A stretch of 64,000 nucleotides of DNA, from assembly GCA_001592145.1 (NCBI GenBank), contig BCWJ01000003.1:186001-250000 (forward strand), in the 5' to 3' direction. The DNA is from Xylanimicrobium pachnodae JCM 13526 = NBRC 107786. GTDB taxonomy: Bacteria > Actinomycetota > Actinomycetes > Actinomycetales > Cellulomonadaceae. Shown here one piece after another: positions 10,832 through 54,433 of the stretch. Position numbers and translations under genes: made by a program. The notes below the pieces were generated by a model, which did not search any database, was not told the DNA's origin, and saw only the letters and a list, made by a program, of their open reading frames with translations. Position 1 is the first letter of the stretch. Every line of letters begins with the position of its first letter.

Positions 10832-12862
10832 ATGACCAGCACCACCGGAAGCCCCGACGCGATCCTCGACGCCCTCGACCCGGAGCAGCGCGAGGTCGCC
10901 ACTGCGCTGCACGGCCCCGTCGTCGTCCTGGCGGGCGCGGGAACGGGCAAGACGCGCGCGATCACGCACCGCATCGCCTACGGGGTCCGCTCGGGGGTGT
11001 ACAAGCCGGGGTCGGTGCTGGCGGTGACGTTCACGGCGCGGGCGGCGGGCGAGATGCGCACCCGGCTGCGCGAGCTCGGCGTGGCCGGGGTGCAGGCGCG
11101 CACGTTCCACGCGGCGGCGCTGCGGCAGCTCGGCTACTTCTGGCCGCGCGTGATCGGTGGCGCGCCCAGCCGCATCCTGGAGCACAAGGCGCCCCTGGTG
11201 GCGGAGGCGGCGCGGCTGGTGGGCGTGAGCGTGGACCGGATCGCGGTGCGTGACCTGGCCACGGAGATCGAGTGGGCCAAGGTGGGGCTGGTCGCGGCGG
11301 ACGACTACGAGCGCCGCGCCCTGTCGATCGGGCGCCCGGCCCCGAGCGGCTTCGACCACGCGCAGGTGGCGCGGCTGGCCACGGCGTACGAGGACGTCAA
11401 GACGGAGCGCGGGGTCATCGACTTCGAGGACGTGCTGCAGATCCTGGCGGGCATCCTCACGGAGCACCGTGCGATCGCGGAGGAGGTGCGGGCGCAGTAC
11501 CGGCACTTCGTGGTGGACGAGTACCAGGACGTCTCCCCGCTGCAGCAGATGCTGCTGGACCAGTGGCTGGGGGACCGCGCCGAGCTGTGCGTGGTGGGTG
11601 ATCCGTCGCAGACCATCTACTCGTTCACGGGCGCCACCCCGCGGTATCTGCTGGAGTTCCGGCGGCGGTTCCCCCGCGCGCACGAGGTGCGGTTGGTGCG
11701 CGACTACCGTTCCACCCCGCAGGTGGTGCACCTGGCCAACGACCTGCTGCGCCGGGGCCGGGTGCTGGGCGCGCTGGACCTGCGCTCGCAGCGCCCCGCC
11801 GGCCCGCCGGTCCGGTTCACGGAGTACGACGACGACGAGGCCGAGGCGACGGGGATCGCGGCGAAGGCGGCGCGACTCATCGCCACGGGCACGCGGCCCA
11901 GCCAGATCGCCGTGCTGTACCGCACCAACGCGCAGTCGGAGGCGTTCGAGTCCGCGCTGACGGATGCGGGGGTCGGCTACCAGGTGCGCGGCGGCGAGCG
12001 GTTCTTTCAGCGCACAGAGGTGCGCGAGGCGATCCGGCTGCTGCGCGGCGCCGCCCGCTCGGCCGACCCGGACCAGCCGATGCCGGAGGCGGTCCGTGAC
12101 GTGCTGACCTCCACGGGCTGGCAGGAGCGCCCGCCGGCCGCCCGGGGTGCCGCGCGGGAACGGTGGGACGCGATGCGCGCCCTGGTGGGACTGGCCGACG
12201 ACCTCGACCGGGTCGCCCGTGAGGCGGGGCGCACCGCCACGCTGGCCGACCTGGCCGCCGAGCTGGAGGAGCGTGCCGCGGCGCAGCACGCCCCGACGGT
12301 CGAAGGGGTCACGCTCGCGTCGTTGCACGCCGCGAAGGGCCTCGAGTGGGATGCGGTGTTCCTCGCGGGGATGAGCGAGGGTCTCATGCCCATCTCGCTG
12401 GCGGAGACCGACGACGCCGTGGCCGAGGAGCGGCGACTGCTCTACGTGGGGGTGACGCGTGCGCGTGAGCACCTGGACGTGTCCTACGCGCGGTCGCGTG
12501 CCCCCGGCGGCCGCGCGACCCGGCAGCGCACGCGCTTCCTGGACGGCTTGTGGCCTGCCGCGACGCCGGCCCGCCGGGGAGCCGGGTCACGGGAACGCTC
12601 ACGCCACCTGCTGGCCGGGGACGCCGACCCCGCGCTGCTCGAGGCGTTGCGCGAGTGGCGCCGCCTGACCGCCGCGGAGCTCGACAAGCCCGCCTACACG
12701 ATCCTCACCGACGCGGTGCTCACCGGTGTCGCGCGGACCCGGCCGACGAGCACCGTGGAGCTGGCCAGGATTCCCGGGATCGGGCCGGCCAAGATCAACC
12801 GGTTCGGCGCCGCGGTCCTGGCCGTGGTGGCCTCGCAGGCGGCGCCCCGTGACGCCCGATGA
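10832..12862 (+). CDS. uvrD2: UvrD2-type superfamily 1 DNA helicase with HRDC domain
   Basis: 676 aa. 3'-5' DNA helicase for repair and replication. Motifs: Walker A GAGTGKT (35-41), DEYQD (about 229), GDPSQTIYSFTGA (about 260), LHAAKGLEWDAV (about 500) and VGVTRAREHLDV (about 543). A C-terminal HRDC domain runs about 600-670 and contains ARIPGIGPAKINRFG. Mycobacterial UvrD2 has a tetracysteine zinc module just before HRDC. Here the matching stretch (about 565-600) has no cysteine, so the module is missing or replaced. GAGAAT eight bases before the ATG could be a -10 element, and there is no clear ribosome site. The neighbours mrx1, nudC and whiB7 match the M. tuberculosis order. Confidence 0.9.
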   Translation: MTSTTGSPDAILDALDPEQREVATALHGPVVVLAGAGTGKTRAITHRIAYGVRSGVYKPGSVLAVTFTARAAGEMRTRLRELGVAGVQARTFHAAALRQLGYFWPRVIGGAPSRILEHKAPLVAEAARLVGVSVDRIAVRDLATEIEWAKVGLVAADDYERRALSIGRPAPSGFDHAQVARLATAYEDVKTERGVIDFEDVLQILAGILTEHRAIAEEVRAQYRHFVVDEYQDVSPLQQMLLDQWLGDRAELCVVGDPSQTIYSFTGATPRYLLEFRRRFPRAHEVRLVRDYRSTPQVVHLANDLLRRGRVLGALDLRSQRPAGPPVRFTEYDDDEAEATGIAAKAARLIATGTRPSQIAVLYRTNAQSEAFESALTDAGVGYQVRGGERFFQRTEVREAIRLLRGAARSADPDQPMPEAVRDVLTSTGWQERPPAARGAARERWDAMRALVGLADDLDRVAREAGRTATLADLAAELEERAAAQHAPTVEGVTLASLHAAKGLEWDAVFLAGMSEGLMPISLAETDDAVAEERRLLYVGVTRAREHLDVSYARSRAPGGRATRQRTRFLDGLWPAATPARRGAGSRERSRHLLAGDADPALLEALREWRRLTAAELDKPAYTILTDAVLTGVARTRPTSTVELARIPGIGPAKINRFGAAVLAVVASQAAPRDAR

Positions 12863-12882
12863 GGCAGTTCGGGAACTCGTGG

Positions 12883-12920
12883 AAATAAAAGGTGGCGATC
12901 CTCGTCCGCACGGCTAGAGT
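12883..12920 (+). promoter_or_regulatory. Probable whiB7 promoter with AT-rich WhiB7/AT-hook box
   Basis: AAATAAAA (12883-12890), striking in this GC-rich DNA, is directly followed by a weak -35 region (GGTGGC or TGGCGA, 12891-12898) and, after a normal spacer, by the -10 hexamer TAGAGT (12915-12920). WhiB7-dependent promoters are known to carry an AT-rich element just upstream of the -35 that the AT-hook binds. This arrangement suggests autoregulation. Confidence 0.6.
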
Positions 12921-12990
12921 CGTGGGCGTCCCGTTGGAAATGACGTGTGCCGCAAGGTGGGCGTCCGAGTGCACGAGGGAGGTGGAAGCT

Positions 12991-13170
12991 GTGGGAACGA
13001 TCAATACGTCGAAGGCCGTCGTCACGTCCTGGCATGAGCTGGGCGCTGACGTGCCGTTCCGTCCGCGTATGGCGAAGCGAGCAGGGGATATCTCTGCGAT
13101 CAGCACGCAGGCGTGGTTCGGCGGCTACCGCCTCACCCACGACTCCGCCCCCGGGTTACCTCCGGCGTAG
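12991..13170 (+). CDS. whiB7 leader peptide (uORF, 59 aa)
   Basis: GTG start preceded by a strong ribosome site (GAGGGAGGTGG about 6 nt upstream), 59 codons, TAG stop at 13168-13170. The peptide has no homologue I recognise; it contains AWFGGYRLTHDSAPG and ends GLPPA. It lies in the long leader of whiB7, between the promoter and a rho-independent terminator. Its last codons overlap the antiterminator arm at 13141-13148. Leader peptides of this kind sense ribosome inhibition upstream of whiB7/wblC genes in mycobacteria and Streptomyces: stalling favours antitermination. Here that role is inferred from the layout; the sequence itself shows the reading frame, the ribosome site and the RNA arms. 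Confidence 0.65.
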   Translation: MGTINTSKAVVTSWHELGADVPFRPRMAKRAGDISAISTQAWFGGYRLTHDSAPGLPPA

Positions 13171-13223
13171 CTCACGCCGAAGCACCAGGCCGCGGAGTCC
13201 ACCCCAGGATCCGCGGCTTTTCT
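13141..13223 (+). terminator. whiB7 attenuator: antiterminator and terminator
   Basis: The terminator stem is GCCGCGGA (13189-13196) paired with TCCGCGGC (13210-13217), followed by TTTTCTGTCT. The alternative pairing is GACTCCGC (13141-13148) with GCGGAGTC (13192-13199); it takes five bases of the terminator's 5' arm, so the two structures exclude each other. The uORF stop (13168-13170) lies between the arms. A ribosome completing the uORF would cover the first arm and allow termination, whereas one stalled earlier would free it and allow read-through into whiB7. Confidence 0.75.
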
Positions 13224-13308
13224 GTCTCTCCCGCGAGACACCGCCCAGAAGACCGCCGGGTCCTGACAAGCCGAAGACGACTTTTCAGACATTCTGCCGG
13301 AGGACACC

Positions 13309-13680
13309 GTGCGACTCGCGCACCTGCTGGACGAGCGATACCTGGAGATGGCTCCGGGGAACGCTGCCTGGACGCCGCACCAACCCCTGCCCGCCGACGC
13401 CGCCCTCGACACCGCGTTCGCCGCCGTGCTGGACGGCGTCCTGCCCTGCCGCACCCACGACCCCGAGCTCTGGTTCGCGGAGCACAGCGCTCAGGTCGAG
13501 GAGGCCAAGGCCCTGTGCCGCACCTGCCCGCTCATGGCGGGCTGCCTCGCCGGCGCCCTCGAACGCGCCGAGCCCTGGGGCGTCTGGGGCGGCGAGGTGT
13601 TCGTCGACGGCGTCGTCGTCGCGCGCAAGCGCGGCCGTGGACGCCCGCGCAAGAACGAGGCGGCACCGACCGCTGCGTGA
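13309..13680 (+). CDS. whiB7: WhiB7-family transcriptional regulator with AT-hook
   Basis: 123 aa. Iron-sulfur regulator that activates intrinsic antibiotic-resistance genes together with the principal sigma factor. The four cluster cysteines are C47, C70, C73 and C79 (CRTCPLMAGC). The GVWGG turn is at 91-95, and a C-terminal AT-hook RGRGRPRK is at 108-115, the hallmark that separates WhiB7 from other WhiB proteins. The GTG start follows GGAGG. The position downstream of uvrD2 matches M. tuberculosis Rv3197A. Expression should be controlled by the AT-rich promoter and the attenuating leader described above. Confidence 0.92.
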   Translation: MRLAHLLDERYLEMAPGNAAWTPHQPLPADAALDTAFAAVLDGVLPCRTHDPELWFAEHSAQVEEAKALCRTCPLMAGCLAGALERAEPWGVWGGEVFVDGVVVARKRGRGRPRKNEAAPTAA

Positions 13681-13689
13681 CCCGCACGC

Positions 13690-13707
13690 GACCCGCACGT
13701 GCGGGTC
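13690..13707. repeat. 18-bp perfect palindrome between convergent whiB7 and thiF-like genes
   Basis: GACCCGCAC is followed directly by its reverse complement. It covers the whiB7 3' flank and the stop codon of the converging gene. There is no T-tract. It may act as a bidirectional transcription stop or an mRNA-end hairpin. Confidence 0.5.
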
Positions 13708-14761
13708 ACGCTCGGCCCAGGTCGACGCACCCGCACCGCGGGTGCGGCCGTAGCGGGACGACCTGGGGCAACGCCTGGGGGAGCGACACCTCGATCACCG
13801 CATCGGCTGCAGCGGGCCGCAACCCGTCGAGGTGCGCAAGCACCTGCGCCCCCACGACCGCCGCGGCGCTCGCCGTCAGCACCGTCTCGTGCGCCGCTTC
13901 CCGGTGCTGCCGCAGCTGGGCGGCCATCGCGGGCCACGCAGGGTCGTCGTCGGTGCGGCCCAGGTCCGCGCACCGCGCGCACGCACTACGTCCGGGCAGC
14001 ACGAACGGGCCCACCGCGATGTCCGCCTCGCGCACCGTGACCGGTACGTGCGGTACGGCCTCGCTCATGAGCCGCAGGTACTTCGTGGGGGCCGCCGCGT
14101 AGGTCTCCACGAGCACGACGACGTCAGGTGCACCGTCCGGCACGGTCCGGACATCGGGTGCGCAGCGGGCGAGCACGTCACGCAGCGCGTCGCGGCGCGG
14201 CCGCCCCACGTCGGCGGTCGTGTACGCACCGAACCCCGGGTCGGCGGTCTGGACGGGCGCCACGTCCGTGAGAATCAGGGTGCCCACTCCCGCCGTGGCC
14301 AGGTGCAACGCCGTCGCGGCGCCGATCCGGCCGAGCCCCGTCACCGCGACGCCGGCCCGCGCGCGCCGGGCAAGGGTCGTCCGGCCGGCACCGTCCGGTC
14401 GCAGCGCGCCCAGGCTGGGGGCGTCGGCCGCGCCGTCGCCTGCCGAGAGCACCCGGGCCGGTCCGGCGCCGCGTCCGGCGGGGTGGGGGACGGTCGCGTG
14501 AAGGAACCCGCCGGCGTGCAGGACGGCCAGGATCTGGTCACGGCGCTCTGCGGGGACGCCGATCCGGGCTGCCGCGGCGGCGGGGGTGGTATGCCGTCGT
14601 GCGGCGAGCTCGCGTACCCACGTGACCTCGGTGTCGTCGAGACCTGTGAGCCGCAGTGCCCAGCGTGCGTCGGTGCCGAGCTGCACCTCGCCGCGTCCGC
14701 GATCCAGCACGGGTGTTCCGGCCCGCAGGCGGAGCCGGTCGGTGTTCAGGTCGGTGATCAC
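13706..14761 (-). CDS. ThiF/HesA/MoeB-like adenylyltransferase-family protein
   Basis: 351 aa, GTG start. The central Rossmann segment VTGLGRIGAATALHLATAG (about 138-157) with the following ILTD is typical of E1-like enzymes that adenylate a carrier-protein C-terminus or bind leader peptides. ADVGRPRRDAL (about 182) corresponds to the conserved DVG.pK/R region. C-terminal cysteines (SACARCADLG and RCGCVDLG) could bind zinc. The N-terminal 110 residues are a winged-helix-like domain unlike MoeB. A protein of this kind sits near whiB7 in mycobacteria (recalled as Rv3196). No sulfur-carrier protein is adjacent, so the substrate is unknown. Confidence 0.7.
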   Translation of the reverse strand: MITDLNTDRLRLRAGTPVLDRGRGEVQLGTDARWALRLTGLDDTEVTWVRELAARRHTTPAAAAARIGVPAERRDQILAVLHAGGFLHATVPHPAGRGAGPARVLSAGDGAADAPSLGALRPDGAGRTTLARRARAGVAVTGLGRIGAATALHLATAGVGTLILTDVAPVQTADPGFGAYTTADVGRPRRDALRDVLARCAPDVRTVPDGAPDVVVLVETYAAAPTKYLRLMSEAVPHVPVTVREADIAVGPFVLPGRSACARCADLGRTDDDPAWPAMAAQLRQHREAAHETVLTASAAAVVGAQVLAHLDGLRPAAADAVIEVSLPQALPQVVPLRPHPRCGCVDLGRA

Positions 14762-53503: not shown

Positions 53504-53513
53504 TTGCCGCACA

Positions 53514-53596
53514 CGTGACACGGGGTGCCCTGACCTCTCAGGGCTGAGATCACACCCGTCGAACCTGATCTAGTTAGCACTAGCGAAGGAATGTTG
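53514..53596 (+). ncRNA. TPP riboswitch (thi box)
   Basis: Conserved blocks in the right order: GGGGTGC (53522-53528), CTGAGA (53544-53549), ACCCGTCGAACCTGATCT (about 53554-53571) and GCGAAGG (53583-53589). It ends at the thiM ribosome site, so thiamine pyrophosphate binding probably blocks translation initiation of thiM; no separate terminator lies between them. Confidence 0.96.
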
Positions 53597-53599
53597 CGC

Positions 53600-54433
53600 A
53601 TGATGCGGACACCTGTCCTTGCCCTGGAACGCAGCGGGGAGCTGCTCGACCGGCTCCGGGTGGAACGCCCGCTGGTCCAGTGCCTGACCAACACGGTCAC
53701 CACCAACTTCGTGGCCAACGTGCTGCTCGCCACGGGTGCCAGCCCGGCCATGGTGGACATCCCCGTCGAGGCGTCGGCGATGGCGCGGTCGGCGGGAGCG
53801 GTGCTGGTCAACCTGGGTACGCCGCGCGCCGAGCAGCGTGACGCCATGGCGGAGGCGGCCGCCGCCGCGTACGACGCCGGGACTCCCTGGGTGCTCGACC
53901 CGGTCGGGGTCGGCGCCCTGCCCGTACGCACCACGCTGGCAGAACGGCTGCTGGGCCTGCGGCCGTCCGTGATCCGCGGCAACGCGTCGGAGATCCGGGC
54001 GCTCGCCGGGCACGGGGCGGGCGCGCAGGGCGTCGACGCGCAGCACGGGGTCGACGAGGCGCGTGAGGCGGCGACGGCGCTCGCCCTCACCACGGGTGCG
54101 GTCGTGGCGGTCTCCGGACCGGTCGACCTGATCACCGACGGGTCCGCGTGCGTGCGGGTGGCGAACGGCAGCCCGCTGTTCGCCGCGGTCACGGGCGCCG
54201 GCTGCGCACTCGGCGGCGTGGTCGCGGCGTTCCTCGCCGTCGGCGACGACGTGTTGACCGCCACCACCGCGGCCTGCCTGGTCTACGCCGTCGCCGGGGA
54301 GGTCGCGGGCGACGCGGCGGGTCAGGCACCGCCCGGGGTGGCCCCCGGACCGGGGTCGTTCGCCGTGCGGCTGCTCGACGCGCTGGCCGCGATCGACGCC
54401 GCACAGCTCGAGGCGCGCGCGAGGGTCTCATGA
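53600..54433 (+). CDS. thiM: Hydroxyethylthiazole kinase
   Basis: 277 aa. Salvage kinase for the thiazole part of thiamine. Motifs: VQCLTNTVTTNFVANVLLATGASPAM, LDPVGVGALPVRT, VIRGNASEI and the catalytic AVTGAGCALGGV. Start at 53600 gives a nine-base gap from the AAGGA in the riboswitch; ATG 53591 is too close and ATG 53603 is also possible. Under control of the TPP riboswitch and overlapping thiE. Confidence 0.93.
   Translation: MMRTPVLALERSGELLDRLRVERPLVQCLTNTVTTNFVANVLLATGASPAMVDIPVEASAMARSAGAVLVNLGTPRAEQRDAMAEAAAAAYDAGTPWVLDPVGVGALPVRTTLAERLLGLRPSVIRGNASEIRALAGHGAGAQGVDAQHGVDEAREAATALALTTGAVVAVSGPVDLITDGSACVRVANGSPLFAAVTGAGCALGGVVAAFLAVGDDVLTATTAACLVYAVAGEVAGDAAGQAPPGVAPGPGSFAVRLLDALAAIDAAQLEARARVS

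Follow-up and report, generated by a model that had tools for sequence, protein, structure and literature searches.

The leader of the WhiB family gene at positions 13309–13680 of the DNA studied here, a 64,000-nucleotide stretch from Xylanimicrobium pachnodae (hereafter, the window), is probably a cis-acting attenuator of whiB7 that combines an RNA polymerase pause element with an Arg-X-Arg (RxR) arrest site for certain macrolides and ketolides. Judging from its sequence, the leader is a member of the known whiB7/wblC kind of uORF attenuators. In actinobacteria, intrinsic resistance to many drugs that target the ribosome is under the control of whiB7; according to a 2025 paper, whether drugs stall ribosomes within the whiB7 uORF has yet to be examined (PMC12121999). 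By naming exact codons and an exact polymerase position, the present analysis makes sensing by the leader directly testable. The features of the locus are as follows:

10832–12862, + strand: UvrD-type helicase with an HRDC domain (Pfam PF00580, PF13361, PF00570), directly upstream of the whiB7 leader
12882–12920, + strand: likely whiB7 promoter, with the A-rich box GAAATAAAA (12882–12890), TGGCGA and TAGAGT
12977–12985, + strand: ribosome-binding site of the uORF, GGGAGGTGG
12991–13170, + strand: uORF of 59 codons with a GTG start and a TAG stop (13168–13170)
13060–13068, + strand: Arg24-Pro25-Arg26 (CGT CCG CGT), an R-X-R enriched across uORFs, proposed macrolide-arrest site
13080–13099, + strand: pause-like element AGCAGGGGATATCTCTGCGA, with G-11 and G-10 at 13085 and 13086, the RNA 3′ end (−1) at T13095 and +1 at G13096
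13141–13148, + strand: antiterminator 5′ arm GACTCCGC, inside the uORF, in the codons of D-S-A
13163–13179, + strand: stop-codon hairpin, CGGCGT (13163–13168) with ACGCCG (13174–13179), nested inside the antiterminator
13187–13221, + strand: intrinsic terminator, stem core GCCGCGGA (13189–13196) with TCCGCGGC (13210–13217), then TTTT (13218–13221)
13192–13199, + strand: antiterminator 3′ arm GCGGAGTC, shared with the terminator 5′ arm
13309–13680, + strand: whiB7, WhiB family (PF02467, E = 2.9e-16), with a C-terminal AT-hook RGRGRPRK recognized by eye

Architecture of the leader and its conservation

The succession of likely promoter, uORF, antiterminator arm, stop hairpin, arm-sharing terminator and whiB7 is supported by the sequence of the window and by comparison with relatives. 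The first-pass annotation had described a GTG uORF with a strong ribosome site, the terminator stem followed by TTTT and an alternative 8-bp pairing between 13141–13148 and 13192–13199; reading and translating the DNA reproduced all three exactly, including the 59 residues of the leader peptide, and both folds are more stable than expected by chance. The folding energies are −22.5 kcal/mol for the terminator (z = −4.8; none of 200 shuffles was as good) and, in RNA from 13141 to 13205, −32.2 kcal/mol for the antiterminator (z = −4.0; 1 of 200 shuffles was as good). The stop-codon hairpin (−9.8 kcal/mol, z = −3.3), the RxR site, the pause-like motif and the promoter were absent from that annotation. 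When the fold is extended to the T run, the terminator is preferred (−36.4 kcal/mol), so that the antiterminator must win by folding first and the order of folding would be decisive. No Rfam family matched the whiB7 leader at gathering scores.

We collected 318 whiB7 loci from named records and from genomes of the family, order and class of the window, which yielded 292 distinct leaders after 26 duplicates were set aside. By fixed rules, we required of each leader a hairpin followed by a T-rich tail and, ending before this hairpin, a uORF that has a good ribosome site; the uORF rule considered the ribosome site, length and hairpin only and made no use of the peptide sequence. A uORF and a terminator-like hairpin precede whiB7 in 232 of the 292 distinct leaders, the remainder failing by the hairpin rule (40) or the uORF rule (20). 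The layout is thus kept in relatives, and the proposal of a ribosome-controlled attenuator of the whiB7 type is supported, with the downstream WhiB gene, uORF, terminator and antiterminator all found. Together with 8 uORFs from another terminator scan, the 232 leaders provided a set of 240 uORFs, of which 101 or 146 are non-redundant at two cut-offs.

The placement of the first antiterminator arm in the last codons of the uORF is corroborated by comparison between lineages. Among 217 of the 232 leaders (128 non-redundant), the uORF tail contains at least six contiguous bases complementary to its own terminator arm in 56 of the 128 (44%), as against 4% when arms were swapped between leader types and 8% with codon-shuffled tails. 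The match to the own arm is found in 71% of 51 leaders of the GGAGTCC type, 43% of 7 GGACCCC, 50% of 6 GGCACCC, 50% of 4 GGAGCCC and 67% of 3 GGACTCC leaders, and in none of the GGACCCG (n = 4) and GGAATCC (n = 2) leaders. Across the 56 matching leaders, each of the three codon phases is used to read the arm (43, 10 and 3 leaders). These results support an alternative pairing that co-varies between lineages, with arm and terminator changing together. Leaders of the GGAACCC type (n = 40), to which the Streptomyces-like leaders belong, match their own arm in only 15% of cases and the GGACTCC arm in 28%. The Streptomyces-like uORFs (L216–L243 and L303) are about 100–120 codons long and have a nearly fixed end, ...MWAFRGPEPWSDPA; their alternative pairing is probably different, because the RNA of this uORF end is similar to the terminator 5′ arm itself and not to the complement of that arm.

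Compensatory changes in the stems had also been anticipated, and here the outcome is mixed: the matching of arms between lineages bears this out, and covariation within an alignment is thin. The alignment comprised 68 of 70 selected leaders (L050 and L308 were left out), mostly from the taxonomic order to which the window belongs and restricted to five arm types, GGAGTCC or near variants. In the antiterminator, 88.6% of the cells are paired, versus 30–49% in slid versions, and 5 cells show changes on both sides, a number reached in none of 500 shuffles. Other measures are modest, with 24 of 500 shuffles for paired cells and 77 of 500 for pairs with double changes, and a slide by +3 columns gives 13 double-change cells, more than the 5 in the true register. 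The thinness of this signal is attributable to the near invariance of the terminator and antiterminator arms in the aligned set. The terminator is paired in 92.8% of the cells, with 6 of 13 pairs never varying and one inner pair open in 41 of the 68 leaders. In two loci, L107 and L210, the terminator stems are altered on both sides (AACCGCGA/TCGCGGTT and GCCGTGGACCCC/GGGGTCCACGGC).

An Arg-X-Arg signal and a pause-like element in the uORF

In the leader peptide, the stretch AWFGGYRLTHDSAPG had been singled out as a possible sensing sequence. Its DSAP part does not stand as such: the C-terminal DSAP is the antiterminator arm read as codons, because other lineages read the arm in other frames. 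The remaining part, W-x-x-G-x-R-L (13114–13134, just 5′ of the antiterminator arm), may matter locally. It is found in 5 of the 7 members of the window genus (among them L087–L090) and in none of the other 233 uORFs, and its occurrence in close kin may reflect shared ancestry or a local role. The peptide feature that is widely conserved by sequence comparison is Arg-X-Arg, which lies upstream of the singled-out stretch (PFRPR in the window).

Of the first 73 non-redundant uORFs, 63 contained RxR, versus 26.5 ± 3.8 in residue shuffles, none of 2000 of which reached this number, and pairs of arginines separated by 0 or 2–7 residues stayed at z values from −2.1 to 2.3. Class-wide, 78 of 101 non-redundant uORFs contain RxR, compared with 33.9 ± 4.5 after shuffling (0 of 1000). 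When all residue pairs were scanned at eight spacings over whole uORFs, W-x-x-P ranked first (z = 11.5), an excess that we ascribe to the RNA arms in the terminal part of the uORF, and RxR second (z = 9.7); without the last 20 residues, RxR was the strongest pair (58 versus 22.2, z = 8.5; 99 uORFs). No excess was found in control protein segments (59 versus 67; 161 segments from 22 long ORFs of the window) or in uORFs read in frame +1 (z = 1.4). In frame +2, z rose to 6.0, but there nearly all spacings were raised, and RxR was also elevated in two antisense frames (z = 6.7 and 4.3). At the nucleotide level, CG dinucleotides in the coding phase of the uORF body are found 6 nt apart 92 times, as opposed to 22, 31 and 25 times at 3, 9 and 12 nt, and the other two phases have no such peak (200 among 175–190 and 368 among 346–357).

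The residue between the arginines varies widely, and 18 combinations of Arg codons were encountered. Occurrences of RxR with an AGA or AGG codon number 10 versus 6.3 expected over whole uORFs and 2 versus 2.6 in the uORF body, where they are too rare to test. A bias is seen at the third position in the two Arg codons as well as in the codon of X (p = 3e-3, 5e-4 and 7e-5). Lysine in place of arginine fits the published +X+ rule (PMC8298421), yet Lys-containing +X+ is depleted (12 versus 25.4 expected in the uORF body; 9 versus 14.0 without the first codons). Generic positive charge was rejected as the conserved feature, since only Arg-X-Arg is enriched.

RxR occurs in 187 of the 240 uORFs, including 63 of 65 from other genera of the window family and 6 of 7 from the window genus. 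The 11 named Mycobacterium uORFs contain neither RxR nor the pause-like element described below; 10 of them have K-H-R (loci among L057–L084), and those inspected are Ala-rich. Overall, the RxR signal is statistically strong across the compared uORFs, and that it marks a macrolide arrest site is likely, though not proven. As to the suggestion that the sensing sequence might be a different solution from those described, a wholly new sensor is not what the data point to, because Arg-X-Arg matches the described macrolide arrest motif and, if drug-sensing, would be a known stalling signal in a new place.

A second recurrent feature, read as QGTGLS or QGRALP, is present in 40 of the 146 uORFs and is conserved as nucleotides. 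Of these 40 uORFs, 34 use GGG for the glycine, 35 have T as the last base of the fourth codon, and all 39 that were scored have G as the last base of the fifth; these synonymous sites are nearly fixed relative to codon usage (p = 2e-25, 6e-35 and 4e-13). Given this fixation and the off-frame occurrences, we rejected a peptide arrest motif. The nucleotide motif, CAGGGGA-N4-T[CG]TG-YCC, is found in all three frames. A weight matrix was scanned in all frames with the 98th percentile of a codon-shuffled null as the threshold; a first pass gave 75 matches, 20 of them off frame, and the refined matrix matched 90 of the 146 uORFs (59, 19 and 12 in the three frames), 90 again with a fresh null and 84 in a leave-one-out procedure. 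By comparison, matches were recorded in 2 of 128 equal-length upstream segments, in 3 and 5 of 303 window segments on the two strands, and in 11 of 146 antisense uORFs against a nominal 2%.

The median distance of the element from the uORF start is 102 nt, and that to the end of the stop codon is 111 nt (91 uORFs, the window included). In the window itself it is weak, with a matrix score of 5.5 as compared to 5.4 and 7.5 for the 95th and 98th percentiles of the null. The sites of L088 and L089 are, as in the window, 91 nt from the end of the stop codon and score 13.3 and 7.2. Within the window genus, the 98% threshold is passed by 4 and the 95% threshold by 6 of the 7 members, L095 being the one without an element. 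At the 98% threshold, 153 of the 240 uORFs carry it; in one family, which we guess to be Streptomycetaceae, it is present in 29 of 29 uORFs and RxR in 19 of 29. Relative to the element, with the last 12 residues excluded, RxR lies upstream in 31, downstream in 39 (2 have both) and is lacking in 23 of 91 uORFs; with RxR on either side, the two parts have no single fixed order.

The conserved G, G, T, Y and G of the motif fall at positions −11, −10, −3, −1 and +1 of the elemental pause signal, to which G-11 and T-3 also belong. The consensus of this signal is G-10, Y-1 and G+1 (PMC12288461), bases that are present in 86, 89 and 88 of the 90 matrix matches, respectively. We therefore regard an RNA polymerase pause signal as a plausible, if unproven, identity of the motif on the strength of its sequence. 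It is unlikely that the motif instead binds some other protein or, as an internal Shine-Dalgarno-like site, slows the ribosome. Such a reading accords with a linear motif that is free of internal pairing (a hairpin within it was rejected, as pairing covariation is absent), with the potential of AGGGG to pair with the anti-Shine-Dalgarno, and with the rarity of the exact pattern, which has 7 sites in 61 family genomes, 4 of them in whiB7 leaders (a reversed-pattern control gave 1), and is absent from G000, whose copy is degenerate. A ribosome site, however, leaves T-3, Y-1, G+1 and the downstream CC unexplained, whereas G-11, G-10, T-3, Y-1 and G+1 match the pause consensus at the right spacing, a fit that by our own estimate would arise by luck about once in 30.

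Proposed mechanism and its alternatives

In the mechanism that we propose, RNA polymerase would pause at the CAGGGGA-N4-TSTG element, some 105 nt into the uORF, and the first ribosome would thereby load and catch up with it. An unimpeded ribosome would reach the stop codon, sweep the antiterminator arm away and unfold the stop hairpin; with the arm out of reach, the terminator would form and whiB7 would be off. Under a drug or starvation, a slowed ribosome would stay upstream of 13141, and the free arm would capture the 5′ arm of the terminator ahead of synthesis of the 3′ arm, resulting in transcription of whiB7. The Arg-X-Arg codons, which in the window precede the arm by 73 nt, would serve as a dedicated arrest site for certain macrolides and ketolides: drug-bound ribosomes would halt on RxR or earlier, in a manner similar to Bacillus tlrB, and other drugs as well as starvation would act wherever the ribosome halts in the long uORF. 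Evidence to the contrary comes from the lack of enrichment of Lys-containing +X+, from the fact that ErmDL can do without RLR when the drug is erythromycin, and from the 11 Mycobacterium uORFs that have neither signal. Toeprints appear 15–16 nt downstream of the start of the P-site codon (PMC6851288). With Pro25 in its P site, an arrested ribosome would reach to about 13079 and leave the arm at 13141 free, and a polymerase paused at RNA end 13095 would sit directly ahead of that ribosome. It is also possible, although we hold this more tentatively and would not call it probable, that outside Mycobacterium the whiB7 uORF of Actinomycetes is a purpose-built drug sensor, in which arrest of macrolide- or ketolide-bound ribosomes at R-X-R is coupled to an any-frame pause signal that synchronizes the polymerase with the arrested ribosome; a master regulator of intrinsic resistance would then have arrived independently at the three-part logic of tlrB.

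A simpler switch, responding only to how fast the ribosome traverses a long uORF of indifferent sequence, with RxR a by-product and the nucleotide motif serving another purpose, seems to us rather improbable. The layout and the matching of the antiterminator would be enough for a switch of this kind, and a review gives antibiotics and amino-acid starvation as inducers of whiB7/wblC (PMC11550727); moreover, the uORF peptides diverge strongly within the window genus, Mycobacterium uORFs do without both signals and Lys-containing +X+ is not enriched. Against this, the RxR excess is specific to spacing and coding frame and absent from control proteins, and the nucleotide motif is conserved at synonymous sites. 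A second, translational layer, in which the uORF end (CCTCCGGC) would mask the whiB7 Shine-Dalgarno (GCCGGAGG), is very improbable and was rejected, since the perfect 8-bp complement of the window, reminiscent of a layer of this type in Bacillus tlrB (PMC6851288), is not conserved: the mean longest match is 4.91 in own versus 4.77 in swapped pairs (141 leaders), matches of at least 7 nt amount to 7.1% versus 4.5%, and genus relatives have 5–6 nt.

Pairing of the 5′ leader with the antiterminator arm, for which the window has a perfect 10-nt match, was likewise rejected, on duplex energies in 27 family members, the window included, that are only slightly below those of swapped pairs and no better than those of shuffled 5′ leaders (−43.8 versus −42.7 ± 0.4 for swapped and −43.0 ± 0.7 for shuffled leaders). 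In the window, shuffles reach 10 nt in 25 of 2000 cases, and the match overlaps the −10 box.

The attenuator with a pause element and an RxR arrest site, which we favour, can be set beside several described systems. A uORF-mediated transcription attenuator of whiB7/wblC in Mycobacterium and Streptomyces has reportedly been described by Lee, Lee and Roe in 2022 and by Burian and Thompson in 2018. The window leader shares with it the uORF, the intrinsic terminator, the alternative antiterminator, whiB7 downstream and a promoter that is likely of the autoregulatory type; what differs here is that the arm has been traced through frame changes and that RxR and the pause-like element are added. We found no mention of RxR or of a polymerase pause in a whiB7/wblC uORF in those parts of the literature that were accessible, and Lee 2022 and Poulton 2024 could contain part of it. 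The absence of both signals from Mycobacterium suggests why mycobacterial work would not have shown either part. More generally, whiB7 leader peptides would look unrelated in part because their conserved end is an RNA arm and one recurrent motif of their middle part (QGTGLS, QGRALP) is a nucleotide signal.

Another parallel is with the Bacillus subtilis tlrB (yxjB) leader, in which an RXR arrest motif in the leader peptide, RNA polymerase pausing in the leader and transcription attenuation have been combined experimentally, with RYR required for induction by tylosin and no stalling there by erythromycin (PMC6851288). The tlrB peptide has 9 residues with RYR at its end, unlike the 59-codon uORF with its internal RxR; its pause is T-rich, NusG-dependent and located after the peptide, whereas the pause-like site of the window is inside the uORF; and it includes Shine-Dalgarno masking, which is unsupported here (PMC6851288). 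ErmDL, a +X+ arrest peptide for macrolides and ketolides, also carries R-X-R, and the ribosome arrests on it with the second Arg codon occupying the A site; its RLR is essential for telithromycin and dispensable for erythromycin (PMC8298421). It is, however, a short peptide controlling ermD, with arrest established by toeprinting (PMC8298421), whereas arrest at the motif of the window is proposed from sequence. The vmlR leader of B. subtilis similarly has a drug-sensing uORF, an antiterminator and terminator and RNA polymerase pausing, but differs in its very short uORF, sensing of the lincosamide/pleuromutilin type, NusG TTNTTT pause motif and anti-antiterminator (PMC9226507).

Promoter and genomic neighbourhood

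The likely promoter, read from the sequence, consists of a −35-like TGGCGA (12893–12898) and a −10 box TAGAGT (12915–12920), placing the probable transcription start near 12927. A promoter-like pattern with the same layout precedes the uORF in 106 of the 232 leaders, as compared to 4 of 2320 sequences with shuffled bases. The reported binding site of WblC is GAAAWY, situated 3 nt ahead of −35 boxes (PMC7157823), and the counterpart of this box in the window is GAAATA. A stretch like CTCGGAGAGTCCCTGA is conserved 3′ of the −10 box in L087–L090, L095 and L006 and is degenerate in the window (12915–12960).

Protein families were assigned to chosen proteins with Pfam and NCBIfam. The product of the gene at 13309–13680 is homologous to WhiB proteins of many named actinobacteria, and the NCBIfam scan assigned no family name to it; we take the gene to be whiB7 from general features of that gene. 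The helicase upstream is presumably uvrD2, the usual neighbour of whiB7. On the other side, a ThiF-like protein is encoded convergently to whiB7 (13706–14761, − strand), and its match to a TOMM leader-peptide-binding family (32.5 bits) falls just below the NCBIfam cut-off of 36.9. By eye, a frame similar to the ThiF-like one ends beside whiB7 in L092, L099, L101, L102 and L106. Farther downstream, the window contains a TPP riboswitch (53511–53608, + strand; 67.4 bits, above the Rfam gathering score).
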